A DNA stretch of 64,000 bases, taken from NCBI RefSeq assembly GCF_020176695.1, contig NZ_JAIWIA010000024.1, positions 1-64,000 of the forward strand, written 5' to 3'. Position 1 is the stretch's first letter; every line of letters starts with the position of its first letter. The DNA is from Massilia sp. MS-15 (GTDB lineage Bacteria; Pseudomonadota; Gammaproteobacteria; Burkholderiales; Burkholderiaceae_D). A program made the translations under genes and the position numbers. Below the pieces are notes generated by a model. That model worked only from the letters and a program-made list of their open reading frames with translations, was not told where the DNA came from and ran no database searches. Below, piece by piece: positions 20,446 through 24,105 of this stretch.

Positions 20446-22764
20446 TCAGCAGTTCCTGGCCTGCACCGCGTCCAGCGGGGTTTCTTCCTGCTGGCGGTGG
20501 CCGCTGGCCAGCGGCTGGCGGCTCTCGGCGGTGTGCTGGAGTTCCACGATTTCCGGATCGTCCAGGTTGCGCAGTTCCAGGTAGCGGTCCAGCGCCTGGT
20601 CCAGGCGCGGCAGCAGGATGCCGCGCTCGCTGCCCAGGGCGCAGTAGCGCGGCCGCGCGGCCGGGTAGTCGATGGCGCGCGCTTCCAGCCGGCTGGCGTC
20701 GATGCCGGCCCGTCCGGCCGCCTTCAGCGCCAGCTCGGCCCAGGTGAGTTCGCCCCCATTCGACAGGTGCCAGATGCCGGCCTCGCGGTCGATCGCCAGG
20801 TCGAGGCAGGCGTGCACCAGGTCGGGCACGTAGGTGGCGGTGATGGTGAGGTCGTTCGAGGCCGCGAACGGCTCGCCGCGCTCGAGCGCGCCCAGCGCCA
20901 GGGTGACGAAGTTGTAGGCGTCCCATGGGCCGAAGAAGGCGCTGGTGCGCACCACCAGCGCGTCCGGGTTCGCGTCCAGTACCGCCACCTCGGCCTCGGC
21001 CTTGCTGCGCCCGTAGACGTTGAGCGGCGCCACCGGGTCGGATTCGACGTAGGGACGGTCCTGCCTGCCGTCGAACACCAGGTCGCTGGAGAAGGTGGTC
21101 AGGTGGATGCCGTGGCGCGCGCAGGCGGCGGCCAGGATCGCGGGGCCGGACGTGTTCTCGCGCAGGCAGCGCGCGGCGTCCCCCTCGGCCTCGTCCACGC
21201 GCACGTAGCCGCAGGTGTTGATCACGGCCCAGGGCTGGTACTGGGCCAGGGCGCGCTCGACCGAGGCGGCGTCGGCGATGTCCATCTCCTGGCGCGACAG
21301 CAGGCGGTAGGACAGGTTGCGCCGGCGGCAGACGCGGGCGAAGGCGCGGCCGAGGGTGCCGGTGGCGCCCAGGATCAGGATCGGCGCCGCCTGCGTGCCC
21401 ACCAGGCGCGCACCGTCGGCCGCGATCGAGGTCAGGGCGGCCGGGGTGGCCACCGGCGGGTGGCACAGGAAGCGCCCCGGACGGCGCCACCAGCCCTGGC
21501 CGCGCAGTACCGGGTGCGACAGCGGGGCGCCCAGCGAGAGTTCCTTCATCATGCGTGCCAGCGCGGTCGGGCGCGGGGTGGGCGAGCGCACGTCGAACGG
21601 GCCCGGCTCGTAGTAGCCGCGGTTCTGGGTGACCAGGCTGTTCCAGTCGAAGGAACCGAGCAGCGACCACACGGTGACGGCGCGCACGTCGATCCCGTTG
21701 CGCTGCGACTGCTGGGCCGCCTGCCAGATCTCGAGCAGCCAGCGCAGCTGGTCTTCGCGGTTGGCATCGATGTGGGCCTCGGTGATGGCCAGCGGGATGC
21801 CGTAGCGGTCCCAGATCTCGGACAGCAGCGGGGCGATGCCCGGGGTCGGCGTGGCCAGCACGCGCGAGGCCTCAATGTCGGCGCAGGGAATGCCGTCGGC
21901 CACGCCGCGGTGGTGTTCCGGGAAGCGTTCGGGACGGTGGTCGAGCCAGCGCTCGGACGTCACGTAGTAGTTGACGCCGATGATGTCGGGCGGGCAGGGG
22001 TTGTCGCGGAACCACAGGAATTCTTCGGCCGCGATGCCGGTCTTGAGCAGGTAATCCCACAGGGCGTGCCCTTCGTCGACCATGCCGCACAGCAGGTCCC
22101 AGGCCAGCCAGCGGCGCTCGTTGTAGAACTCGGCCACGTGGCCCAGTTCCGGGGTGCCGTAGGTCTTGCCGAGGTCGTCGGTCTGGACCAGCTTCGCCTG
22201 CGGGTTGACGGCGCGGATGGCGCGCATTGACAGCACCACCGCGCGGCACTGGTTCAGCAGGGCCTGGACGAAGCTGCGGTCGTCGCGGCCGTGCGGGTAC
22301 CACACCCCGTACAGGCCGGCGAAGCGGGCGGTGGTGCAGGGTTCGTTGACCGGGGTGTAGTAGGTGATCCAGGGATAGCGCGCGGCCACCGCGCCGGCGT
22401 AGGCGGCCAGTTGTTCGGCGAAGCCGGGGTCGAGCAGGCTGGTGTGGCGTGGGCCGCTGCCATGGTGCACCAGGCCGGCGATCGGGGTGATGCCGGCGTC
22501 GCGCAGGGCCTGCAGGCGTTCGTCGGGCCAGGACCAGTCGGCCCCGTCGATGCCCTCGGGGGCGGTACGTTCCCACAGCACGGGATAGCGGATGGCGCGG
22601 ATGCCGGTGGCGGCGAAACGCCCGATGTCGCAGGCGCGTCCGGCATGGCCGTTACGGTCCAGCTGGCTGAAATACTCGTCGCGGACACGGTTGACCGTGC
22701 ATTCGAGGCCGCCCCACAGTTCCAGTGGGGGGCGTTGGCTGTTCGTGCTCTTTTGTGGATTCAT
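20446..22764 (-). CDS. Fusion protein: GH1-like glycosidase + RmlD-type dTDP-sugar reductase
   Basis: A 772-residue two-domain protein. Residues about 15-425 form a GH1-like barrel with acid/base Glu in YYTPVNEPC (about 141) and nucleophile Glu in LAITEAHID (about 329). Residues about 460-745 form an RmlD/SDR domain: ILILGATGTLGRAF binds the cofactor, TFSSDLVFDG carries the Ser, and NVYGRSKAEAE carries the YxxxK pair. RmlD reduces dTDP-4-keto-rhamnose to dTDP-rhamnose. No rmlABC genes are nearby. The first in-frame codons are GTG-ATG; ATG 22764 is preferred, with GGTGAG just upstream. It may link cleavage of a glycoside to modification of a sugar. Confidence 0.87.
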   Translation of the reverse strand: MNPQKSTNSQRPPLELWGGLECTVNRVRDEYFSQLDRNGHAGRACDIGRFAATGIRAIRYPVLWERTAPEGIDGADWSWPDERLQALRDAGITPIAGLVHHGSGPRHTSLLDPGFAEQLAAYAGAVAARYPWITYYTPVNEPCTTARFAGLYGVWYPHGRDDRSFVQALLNQCRAVVLSMRAIRAVNPQAKLVQTDDLGKTYGTPELGHVAEFYNERRWLAWDLLCGMVDEGHALWDYLLKTGIAAEEFLWFRDNPCPPDIIGVNYYVTSERWLDHRPERFPEHHRGVADGIPCADIEASRVLATPTPGIAPLLSEIWDRYGIPLAITEAHIDANREDQLRWLLEIWQAAQQSQRNGIDVRAVTVWSLLGSFDWNSLVTQNRGYYEPGPFDVRSPTPRPTALARMMKELSLGAPLSHPVLRGQGWWRRPGRFLCHPPVATPAALTSIAADGARLVGTQAAPILILGATGTLGRAFARVCRRRNLSYRLLSRQEMDIADAASVERALAQYQPWAVINTCGYVRVDEAEGDAARCLRENTSGPAILAAACARHGIHLTTFSSDLVFDGRQDRPYVESDPVAPLNVYGRSKAEAEVAVLDANPDALVVRTSAFFGPWDAYNFVTLALGALERGEPFAASNDLTITATYVPDLVHACLDLAIDREAGIWHLSNGGELTWAELALKAAGRAGIDASRLEARAIDYPAARPRYCALGSERGILLPRLDQALDRYLELRNLDDPEIVELQHTAESRQPLASGHRQQEETPLDAVQARNC

Positions 22765-22870
22765 CACTCACCATATTAGTTTTATAACAACAAAATCCCC
22801 GCAACGCAGCCTCCCAGGCGTAAAAGTGTCGAAAGGGGGGCTGGCCAGCGGGCCATGGGACGGGAAGCGG

Positions 22871-22899
22871 TTGACAGCGGCGCGCCAACCTGCAACCAT
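22871..22899 (+). promoter_or_regulatory. Candidate promoter of the trpS leader
   Basis: A perfect -35 TTGACA (22871-22876) is followed after 17 bases by AACCAT, preceded by TGC as a partial extended -10. If used, transcription would start near 22906, placing the leader AUG at 22907 almost at the RNA 5' end. The weak -10 keeps confidence low. Confidence 0.4.
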
Positions 22900-22960
22900 G
22901 CAGTCCATGAATTTTCCGAAAGCACATCAATTTTTGCTGACCTGGTGGCGCCGCTCCTGA
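22898..22960 (+). CDS. Putative Trp-rich leader peptide of trpS (20 residues)
   Basis: A tiny frame, ATG 22898 (or in-frame ATG 22907) to TGA 22958-22960, ends LLTWWRRS, with two adjacent Trp codons at 22943-22948. Tandem Trp codons in a short frame directly before a terminator-like hairpin are the hallmark of trp-type attenuation leaders; the analogy among synthetase genes is the Phe-rich pheM peptide before E. coli pheST. No Shine-Dalgarno is visible. If the upstream promoter is right, the peptide could be made leaderless from 22907. Confidence 0.55.
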   Translation: MQSMNFPKAHQFLLTWWRRS

Positions 22961-23023
22961 CGCGCGGCCCCAGGAATGATTTGCATTTCGATTAACGCCG
23001 CCTCGATCCAGGTGGCGTTTTCA
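22941..23023 (+). promoter_or_regulatory. Putative attenuator (1:2 / 2:3 / 3:4 stems) of trpS
   Basis: Mutually exclusive pairings are visible. Stem 1:2 pairs CCTGG (22941-22945) with CCAGG (22970-22974) and GCCGC (22950-22954) with GCGGC (22964-22968). Stem 2:3 pairs the same GCGGC with GCCGC (22997-23001). Stem 3:4 pairs AACGCCGCC (22994-23002) with GGTGGCGTT (23011-23019, one mismatch) and runs into TTTT, forming the terminator. A ribosome stalled on the Trp codons would mask strand 1, allow 2:3 and let transcription reach trpS. The layout is seen in the sequence; the mechanism is inferred. Confidence 0.55.
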
Positions 23024-23064
23024 TATCCAGCGCAGGAGGATCGGGGCACAGACAAGGAAACCCT

Positions 23065-24105
23065 ATGAGCTCCCCCACCCCTGCTACCGCAACTTCTCCT
23101 TCCATGCCGGTCATCCTCACCGGAGACCGTCCGACCGGTCCGCTGCACCTCGGCCACTTCGTGGGCAGCCTGCGCAACCGCGTCGCCTACCAGGACAGCT
23201 ACCGCCAGTTCGTCATGCTGGCCGATGCCCAGGCGCTGACCGACAACATGGATGACATCGGGAAGGTACACCGAAACGTGGTCGAAGTGGCGCTCGATTA
23301 CCTCGCCTGCGGCATCGATCCGGCCCGCACGACCATCCTGATCCAGTCGCAGATCCCGGAACTGACCGAGCTCACCTTCTATTACCTGAACCTGGTGACG
23401 GTGGCGCGCCTCGAGCGCAACCCGACCGTGAAGCAGGAAATCATCCTGCGCGGCTTCGAGCGCGACATCCCGGCCGGCTTCCTGACCTACCCGGCCAGCC
23501 AGGCCGCCGACATCACCGCCTTCAAGGCCACCGTGGTGCCGGTGGGCGAAGACCAGATCCCGATGATCGAGCAGTGCAACGAGATCGTGCGCCGCTTCAA
23601 CCGCACCTACAGCCCCGATCACGACATTCTGCTCGAGTGCAAGGCGATCGTGCCGGAAGTGGGCCGCCTGCCCGGCATCGACGGCCGCGCCAAGATGAGC
23701 AAGTCGCTCGGCAACACCATCAACCTGGGCGCCAGCGCCGACGAGATCCGCGCCGCCGTCAAGCAGGTCTATACCGACCCGCTGCACCTGAAGGTGTCCG
23801 ACCCCGGCCACCTGGAAGGCAACGTGGCCTTCATCTACCTCGACGCCTTCGACCAGGACAAGGAAGGCCTGGCCGAGATGAAGGCCCATTACGTGCGCGG
23901 CGGCCTGGGCGACAGCGTGGTCAAGAAGCGCCTGGAAGGCATCCTGCAGGACCTGCTGGCGCCGATCCGCGCGCGCCGCGAGGAGTTCGCCAAGGACCGC
24001 GGCCAGGTGCTGCAGATCCTGAAGGAGGGCACCATGAAGGCGCGCGAGGTGGCGGCCCAGACCACCGACGAAGTGAAGAAGGCGCTGGGGCTGTCCTACT
24101 TCTGA
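23065..24105 (+). CDS. trpS: Tryptophanyl-tRNA synthetase
   Basis: Charges tRNA-Trp. The 346-residue protein has the class I signatures HLGHF (in [13 protein letters not shown], about residue 30) and KMSKS (in [11 protein letters not shown]), and the TrpRS-typical [21 protein letters not shown]. The length fits bacterial TrpRS of the compact class. The start at ATG 23065 is 27 bases after GGAGGA, and the first 15 residues are a low-complexity Pro/Thr/Ala extension; the first well-conserved residues begin [11 protein letters not shown]. Expression is probably controlled by tryptophan supply through the leader just upstream. Confidence 0.96.

Follow-up and report, generated by a model that had tools for sequence, protein, structure and literature searches.

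The window, the whole 64,000-nucleotide stretch of a contig from the soil bacterium Massilia sp. MS-15 analysed here, carries trpS at positions 23065..24105 of the forward strand. The gene encodes a 346-aa tryptophan–tRNA ligase of the short type, whose product scores 225 bits against TIGR00233 (cut-off 176.75), and a whole-genome search returned it as the single trpS match in its own genome. The closest named relative is Massilia alkalitolerans, at 95% identity. A 297-base gap separates trpS from a divergent minus-strand gene at 20446-22767, a 773-codon frame whose first half weakly matches glycoside hydrolase family 1 and whose second half gives an RmlD-like (dTDP-4-dehydrorhamnose reductase) match under the curated cut-off. 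The gap and the trpS start contain the following features, and helices are referred to below by the two strands that form them.

22871..22876, forward strand: -35 box, TTGACA, found in 74 of 81 loci
22891..22899, forward strand: extended -10 box, TGC-AACCAT, with AACCAT itself at 22894-22899
22907..22960, forward strand: leader ORF of 17 codons, MNFPKAHQFLLTWWRRS, with Trp codons at 22943-22948 and the stop at 22958-22960
22923..22928, forward strand: strand 0, CACATC, which pairs with 22978-22983 and contains an often conserved His codon
22945..22954, forward strand: strand 1, overlapping the second Trp codon and two Arg codons, with the core GCCGC at 22950-22954
22962..22971, forward strand: strand 2, with the core GCGGC at 22964-22968
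22994..23021, forward strand: terminator hairpin, comprising strand 3 (22994-23003), a loop, strand 4 (23010-23019) and a T-run to 23021
23000..23009, forward strand: strand 3b, GCCTCGATCC, covering terminator 5' arm and loop, an alternative partner of strand 5
23029..23033, forward strand: strand 4', AGCGC, which pairs with 23015-23018 within the 3b:5 hairpin (94.4% of cells paired)
23038..23047, forward strand: strand 5, GGATCGGGGC, just before the trpS Shine-Dalgarno, with 3b and the trpS start region as possible alternative partners
23054..23059, forward strand: Shine-Dalgarno of trpS, AAGGAA
23060..23066, forward strand: strand 6, ACCCTAT, surrounding the trpS start and complementary to strand 5

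The TTGACA box that the sequence-only reading had recognised is present at 22871-22876. So is the frame with tandem Trp codons, which was said to span 20 codons: MQSMNFPKAHQFLLTWWRRS contains TGGTGG, may begin at ATG 22898 or at ATG 22907, and stops at 22958-22960. Its length has to be revised: ATG 22898 overlaps the -10 box AACCAT, so the ORF in the transcript most likely begins at 22907 and has 17 codons. Seven bases separate this ATG from the -10 box. The three mutually exclusive stems that had been proposed were also located, with GCCGC at 22950-22954, GCGGC at 22964-22968 and, within strand 3, GCCGC at 22997-23001. A hairpin does stand where the last stem with a T-run had been placed, and strands 3 and 4 form 10 bp there; the run itself is short, with four T at 23018-23021, two of them inside the stem. 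A promoter and terminator scan of 22500-23400 reported no sigma-70 promoter and no terminator, and the sequence there falls outside the scan's -10 rule and its T-run rule (at least five T in eight).

To assess chance occurrence, we generated 5000 dinucleotide shuffles of 22768-23064 and searched them for an ATG-initiated ORF of 8-40 codons with in-frame TGGTGG. A comparable ORF arose in 21 of the 5000 shuffles, and it was accompanied by a terminator-like hairpin in 1 of the 5000. The reality of the leader rests chiefly on its conservation, which is the stronger test. Among 81 loci, comprising the window and the best 80 of 357 confirmed relatives, promoter and leader ORF are kept in 74; the seven loci in which no such promoter and ORF were found are all seven Collimonas records. 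The spacing between TTGACA and the -10 box is 17 nt in 74/74 leaders (16-18 allowed). The -10 box reads AACCAT in 67 of the 74, with four variants among the other seven, and is preceded by TGN. The distance from the -10 box to the ATG (4-9 allowed) is 7 nt in 40 leaders, 6 in 33 and 5 in one. TGGTGG lies in frame in all 67 leaders that have it, at 30, 33, 36 or 45 nt from the ATG. The remaining seven, six Duganella or Rugamonas loci and a metagenome-assembled genome labelled Janthinobacterium (L054), contain a single Trp codon, so that each of the 74 leaders has at least one in frame. Comparison therefore supports the ORF, its frame and its promoter spacing.

For comparison of the RNA strands, near-identical loci were removed (74 to 51) and then L003 and L016, which left 49 leaders in alignment A1. 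In L016, from Herbaspirillum sp. SJZ107, strand 5 is separated from the trpS ribosome-binding site by an insert of about 110 bases whose ends are inverted (GGACATCGAAAAACC ... GGTTTTTCGAGGTCC), and this locus was also excluded from the class-swap, forced-fold and start-openness tests described below.

A model built on A1, termed R1, gave one match each in 163 of 392 family genomes, distributed over 8 of 44 genera, and in 30 of 30 fetched loci the match stood directly before trpS. In a class-wide sample it matched 1 of 369 genomes, namely its own. When 40 of the 163 R1-positive genomes were searched with TrpS, 23 contained the short trpS alone and 17 contained, in addition, a distant second match, mostly of a longer type. 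Two types of trpS, short (~346 aa) and long (~400 aa), occur singly or together in genomes of the family and the order. We also drew 30 trpS loci, 11 of the short type and 19 of the long type, from 43 genomes that belong mostly to genera in which R1 had no match. A Trp leader of very different sequence precedes 6 of the 11 short-type loci, for instance MLFLKDQLAKTQHWWRA or, with one Trp codon, MNTPPTNAPGWMRA, and none was counted at the other five; the short frames listed at the 19 loci of the long type contain no WW. Across the order, short trpS was found at E up to 1e-100 in 51 of 349 genomes, at 52 places. Of these, 40 stretches were fetched; 26 display a WW or WWW leader, several being near-copies of each other, and in 14 no Trp leader was counted. 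The WW frame of L151, MAAPMTMWWPCVLW, was not counted as a leader. Tests on divergent leaders used 30 of the 32 obtained in this way (6 from the family, 26 from the order), L119 and L168 being left out for want of an automatically detected terminator. Two further loci deserve mention. L118 is the sole trpS match of genome G032, is of the short type, and is preceded by a GCCGC...GCGGC hairpin with seven T and by no Trp leader ORF. Genome G391, of the same genus as the genome under study and listed as 100% complete, gave no TrpS match at E up to 0.001, perhaps owing to an assembly gap or a binning problem.

The trpS leader is probably leaderless, as the sequence-only reading had guessed, and seems to have no ribosome-binding site, because its ATG sits 5-7 nt past the -10 box in all 74 leaders. 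In each of the 30 divergent leaders, the distance from the best promoter to the leader ATG is likewise 5-7 nt (5-8 allowed), and this promoter beat four offset controls every time, in a test that could choose among up to three ATGs while the controls could not. A leader without an untranslated 5' end is the simplest reading for these divergent sequences as well. The reading had staked itself beforehand on the Trp codons and stems being kept in relatives and on transcription starting upstream of 22960. Codons and stems are kept, and the conserved promoter would place the start near 22906-22907.

A promoter about 6 nt from the leader ATG is also what characterizes rnTrpL-like leaders, and a leaderless Trp leader acting in trans is described for Sinorhizobium meliloti in the accessible part of the published account (PMC7298713). 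One could thus suppose, as for Sinorhizobium peTrpL, that the leader peptide itself is the product, a small functional protein made from a leaderless mRNA, with attenuation secondary. We regard this as improbable, since outside WWR(R) the peptide is highly variable in both sequence and length, while the RNA strands stay complementary.

This complementarity underlies the classical part of the proposed attenuator. Across the 49 leaders of A1, pairing reaches 97.1% of cells in the 3:4 helix and 90.3% in the 1:2 helix. The strand 0 helix, which brackets 1:2, is paired in 92.1% of cells, with one pair mismatched in the window. The competing 2:3 helix (5 bp) can form in 49 of 49 leaders and, being invariant, gives no covariation information. 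RNAalifold applied to A1 kept the terminator together with three 1:2 pairs and three 5:6 pairs. To mimic a ribosome on the first Trp codon, which would hide strand 1, we masked this strand and folded the nascent RNA to the end of strand 3, before strand 4 exists. The median probability of 2:3 rose from 0 in the free RNA to 0.94, with an increase in 73 of 74 leaders; it exceeded 0.5 in 64 leaders and stayed at or below 0.5 in 10 despite the masking. With strand 4 included, the equilibrium fold assigned the terminator a probability of at least 0.5 in 71 of 74 leaders even when strand 1 was masked, so that equilibrium folding up to the U-run does not display the antitermination seen as 2:3 at the earlier time point. 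Because the terminator wins at equilibrium, antitermination must be kinetic, a choice made in time, as is usually assumed for E. coli trp. Unmasked, only L051 and L072 (2 of 74) lacked a preference for the terminator.

The locus combines two features expected of an amino-acid attenuator: an ORF with tandem control codons precedes the linked gene, and the mutually exclusive stems place strand 1 at those codons. The conserved 3:4 helix is a candidate intrinsic terminator, yet the window provides only four T. Transcription would start at or next to ATG 22907, and the leader would be read as a leaderless ORF. When Trp-tRNA is plentiful, the ribosome would pass both Trp codons, 1:2 and 3:4 would form, and the polymerase would stop after about 115 nt. 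When it is scarce, the ribosome would stall on the Trp codons and cover strand 1, 2:3 would form before strand 4 is made, and the polymerase would continue into trpS. We consider it very probable that a ribosome-mediated tryptophan attenuator of this kind controls trpS; the stems and the effect of masking strand 1 are supported by comparison or folding, and the response to Trp, the efficiency of termination and the induction by uncharged tRNA-Trp are inferred. The earlier observation of a trpS leader is confirmed by these comparisons, and its interpretation as an attenuator is supported.

Control of trpS by other means, such as a T-box or protein autoregulation, would make the Trp codons incidental. 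Strands 5 and 6 flank the ribosome-binding site, a possible place for an autoregulatory operator. Rfam, which includes a Trp leader family, gave no gathering-level match in the window and none in nine relatives; when E values up to 5 were admitted, six weak matches appeared within 22860-23080, none of them to a T-box or a Trp leader model. Together with an in-frame Trp codon in each of the 74 leaders, this renders such control very unlikely indeed, and attenuation by the leader ORF remains our preferred reading.

The sequence-only reading contained neither strand 5 nor a possible hairpin at the start codon, and it did not extend to the occurrence of such leaders across the order, the additional trpS gene of many relatives or the Trp leader ahead of trpE. 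Strand 5 forms a helix with the 5' arm of the terminator, for which the alignment provides some covariation. In A1, 3b:5 is paired in 90.8% of cells and the whole 12-pair structure in 92.0%, and columns 118:171, 119:170 and 120:169 hold several pair types. The structure contains 30 double-change cells, compared with 13.0 in shuffled alignments and at most 7 in slid controls, and its covariation score also exceeds both. The stricter measures are not above the shuffles, with 3 double-change pairs (shuffles 3.4) and 15 further pair types (shuffles 14.7). An alignment-free class swap was performed on 68 leaders, excluding L016 and five loci without the usual strand 5 (L054, L062, L064, L070 and L073). 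The observed pairing energy was reached in 6 of 10000 permutations for 3b with 5 and in 11 of 10000 for 5 with 6, in a kind of test that kinship inflates. A tree-based independent-pairs test on the trpS tree had too few events (4-5) for significance among the pairs listed. In the divergent leaders, the pairing between the terminator arm and the stretch before trpS was compared with 200 shuffles: no more than 10 of them equalled it in 18 of 30 leaders, and no more than 2 in 11 of 30; post hoc hand correction of four misplaced terminators (L153, L154, L155 and L157) changed these counts to 22/30 and 14/30. The 3b:5 helix is thus supported by comparison, and in read-through RNA strand 5 could take the 5' arm of the terminator.

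By capturing strand 5, 3b:5 would keep it off the trpS start, where it can otherwise form 5:6, and RNA that leaks through folded as the terminator would be translated less. The 5:6 helix is paired in 82.1% of A1 cells, and columns 171:209, 172:208 and 173:207 exhibit changes on both sides in 5, 3 and 7 of 49 sequences, respectively; by the stricter measures (double-change pairs and further pair types), 5:6 is not above shuffles. When 3:4 was forced, the median probability of 5:6 was 0.72 and the trpS start was 0.30 unpaired; when 2:3 was forced, the values were 0.35 and 0.53. The start was more open under forced 2:3 than under forced 3:4 in only 42 of 73 leaders. Against controls with shuffled upstream parts, openness of the start region was lowered only slightly in the family (44 of 73 leaders; mean 0.505, shuffled 0.534) and more clearly in the order (23 of 26; mean 0.389, shuffled 0.490), the order set excluding the four loci with misplaced terminators. 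The window shows no excess pairing of this region over shuffles (openness 0.54 against 0.51), and its strand 6 has CCCTAT in place of the CCCGAT of many relatives, so that one 5:6 pair is lost. A translational layer in the group is a plausible step with moderate support at best from these alignments and folds. It is less likely in the window genome itself, because one 5:6 pair is broken there and no start-occlusion effect appears.

Loci of one genus bear on this layer. From mid-scoring R1 matches we took 20 loci of a single genus (L189-L208), four of which are the named Janthinobacterium records L062, L064, L070 and L073. In 19 of the 20, GGTGGCGTAACAGG stands in place of the U-run, while the WW leader ORF and the stems are kept, and a prominent hairpin surrounds the trpS start. 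Three higher-scoring loci of the genus contain GTTGTTG or GTTTTTC at this place, and among eight named loci labelled Janthinobacterium the same four records lack a U-run. If these leaders still regulate, they would have to manage with no intrinsic terminator at this position, and regulation would most simply act at translation. The fold from strand 3 to the start is finely balanced, and a shorter stretch of L062 folds as 3:5.

These observations could be joined in a switch with two levels. With the arm of strand 3 held in the terminator, strand 5 would close the trpS site; once freed, the arm would capture strand 5 and open the site, and the Janthinobacterium clade without a U-run would possess a purely translational Trp attenuator. 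We hold this proposal only tentatively and find it rather doubtful, having marked it down because the stricter covariation measures for 3b:5 and 5:6 do not exceed shuffles. If it is true, the Janthinobacterium leader represents a natural conversion between transcriptional and translational modes.

Alternatively, attenuation may be transcriptional only, with 3b:5 and 5:6 playing no part in translation and arising only because the arms are GC-rich and resemble one another; only the translational layer is at issue here, and the core attenuator stays as it is. The broken 5:6 pair and the unexceptional start region of the window speak for it, as do forced folds that distinguish the two states in just 42 of 73 leaders, counts of double-change pairs and pair types at the level of shuffles, and an independent-pairs test without significance. 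It accounts less well for the double-change cells and the covariation score of 3b:5, both higher than in shuffles and slid controls, for the recurrence of this helix in very different leaders (18/30, or 22/30 after the hand correction), and for the retention of the leader without a U-run in 19 of the 20 chosen Janthinobacterium loci. Taking both sides together, we give purely transcriptional attenuation somewhat less than an even chance. The core of the locus is an ordinary leader-peptide attenuator under either account; what merits experimental work is strand 5 and the loci that lack a U-run, the Janthinobacterium loci offering a ready comparison of terminator-bearing and terminator-less versions.

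In Proteobacteria, the main known example of a synthetase gene under leader-peptide attenuation is pheST, and the pheM leader of E. coli pheM-pheST has an ordinary ribosome-binding site. Vecchione and Sello are said to have studied trpRS1 of Streptomyces coelicolor, and Lopatovskaya and others (2010) reportedly addressed attenuation of synthetase genes and might already list such cases. As far as the accessible text goes, E. coli pheST resembles the present locus as a proteobacterial aminoacyl-tRNA synthetase under leader-peptide attenuation (PMC1262725), with the difference that it responds to Phe rather than Trp. A close likeness in regulated gene and control codon comes from the trpS/trpS2 attenuators of Streptomyces, predicted in S. 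avermitilis and represented in S. lividans TK24 by trpL2 (MMTRTCTQLWRAA), in which one or more Trp codons lie in a short leader before trpS (accessible parts of PMC1262725 and PMC8079986). The available account of trpL2 describes it as leaderless by RNA-seq and mentions hairpins, whereas a U-rich stretch downstream was not found (PMC8079986). Streptomyces belongs to another phylum, trpL2 has one Trp codon in contrast to the usual two or three here, and a counterpart of strand 5 is not described in the accessible parts of these two sources (PMC1262725, PMC8079986).

Other systems share single elements. In S. meliloti trpL/rnTrpL, the RNA begins with the ATG of the Trp leader ORF according to the available text (PMC7298713), much like the putative leaderless trpS leader; that leader controls trpE(G) instead of trpS and belongs to an alphaproteobacterium. 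Ribosome profiling placed a small CDS before trpS on the Caulobacter crescentus trpS mRNA, and the accessible part of that study gives no attenuator structure (PMC4117421). The proposed translational layer finds its likeness in B. subtilis tlrB (yxjB), in which, per the available text, one leader peptide goes together with both a terminator and, in read-through RNA, a hairpin covering the ribosome-binding site (PMC6851288); tlrB senses tylosin and not an amino acid. As regards such a dual attenuator, the trpS leaders display 5:6 changes on both sides at three columns and the class-swap result of 11/10000, but the start is only weakly occluded in family leaders and not in the window.

The sequence-only reading had known of no described Trp leader for trpS in this group, and the literature searched, which covers few subscription journals, likewise yielded no account of a trpS attenuator in Burkholderiales. 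Among papers with both 'trpS' and 'leader peptide', no title concerns Burkholderiales, and neither 'trpS' nor 'attenuat' occurs in the main text of a study on B. cenocepacia start sites (PMC4603805). A B. cenocepacia small-RNA study describes, in its accessible part, two tRNA synthetase genes (BCAL3373 and BCAL3436) whose 5' ends are short and attenuated, and its tables may hold a similar observation (PMC5688073).

Leader-peptide attenuation thus appears to precede trpS in several families of one order, and in 23 of the 40 R1-positive genomes tested the attenuated short gene is the only trpS found. Through the downstream strand 5, termination could be coupled to translation. Violacein, a tryptophan-derived pigment, is made by members of several of these genera, and in such producers the balance between Trp use and Trp-tRNA charging may have practical interest.

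A search of the same genome for other sites combining WW with a terminator gave four matches, compared with three for the reversed pattern, which corresponds to chance; the gaps permitted were too short to catch the trpS leader. About 180 bases upstream of trpE in this genome (L147, contig C87) lies a Trp-rich leader ORF, MFFTKKHTVNQTGALEAWLWRRWQSWAN, closed by a stop codon and followed by a hairpin and a T-run. With one leader before trpE and another before trpS, the cell would have separate sensors for the supply of Trp and for the charging of its tRNA.
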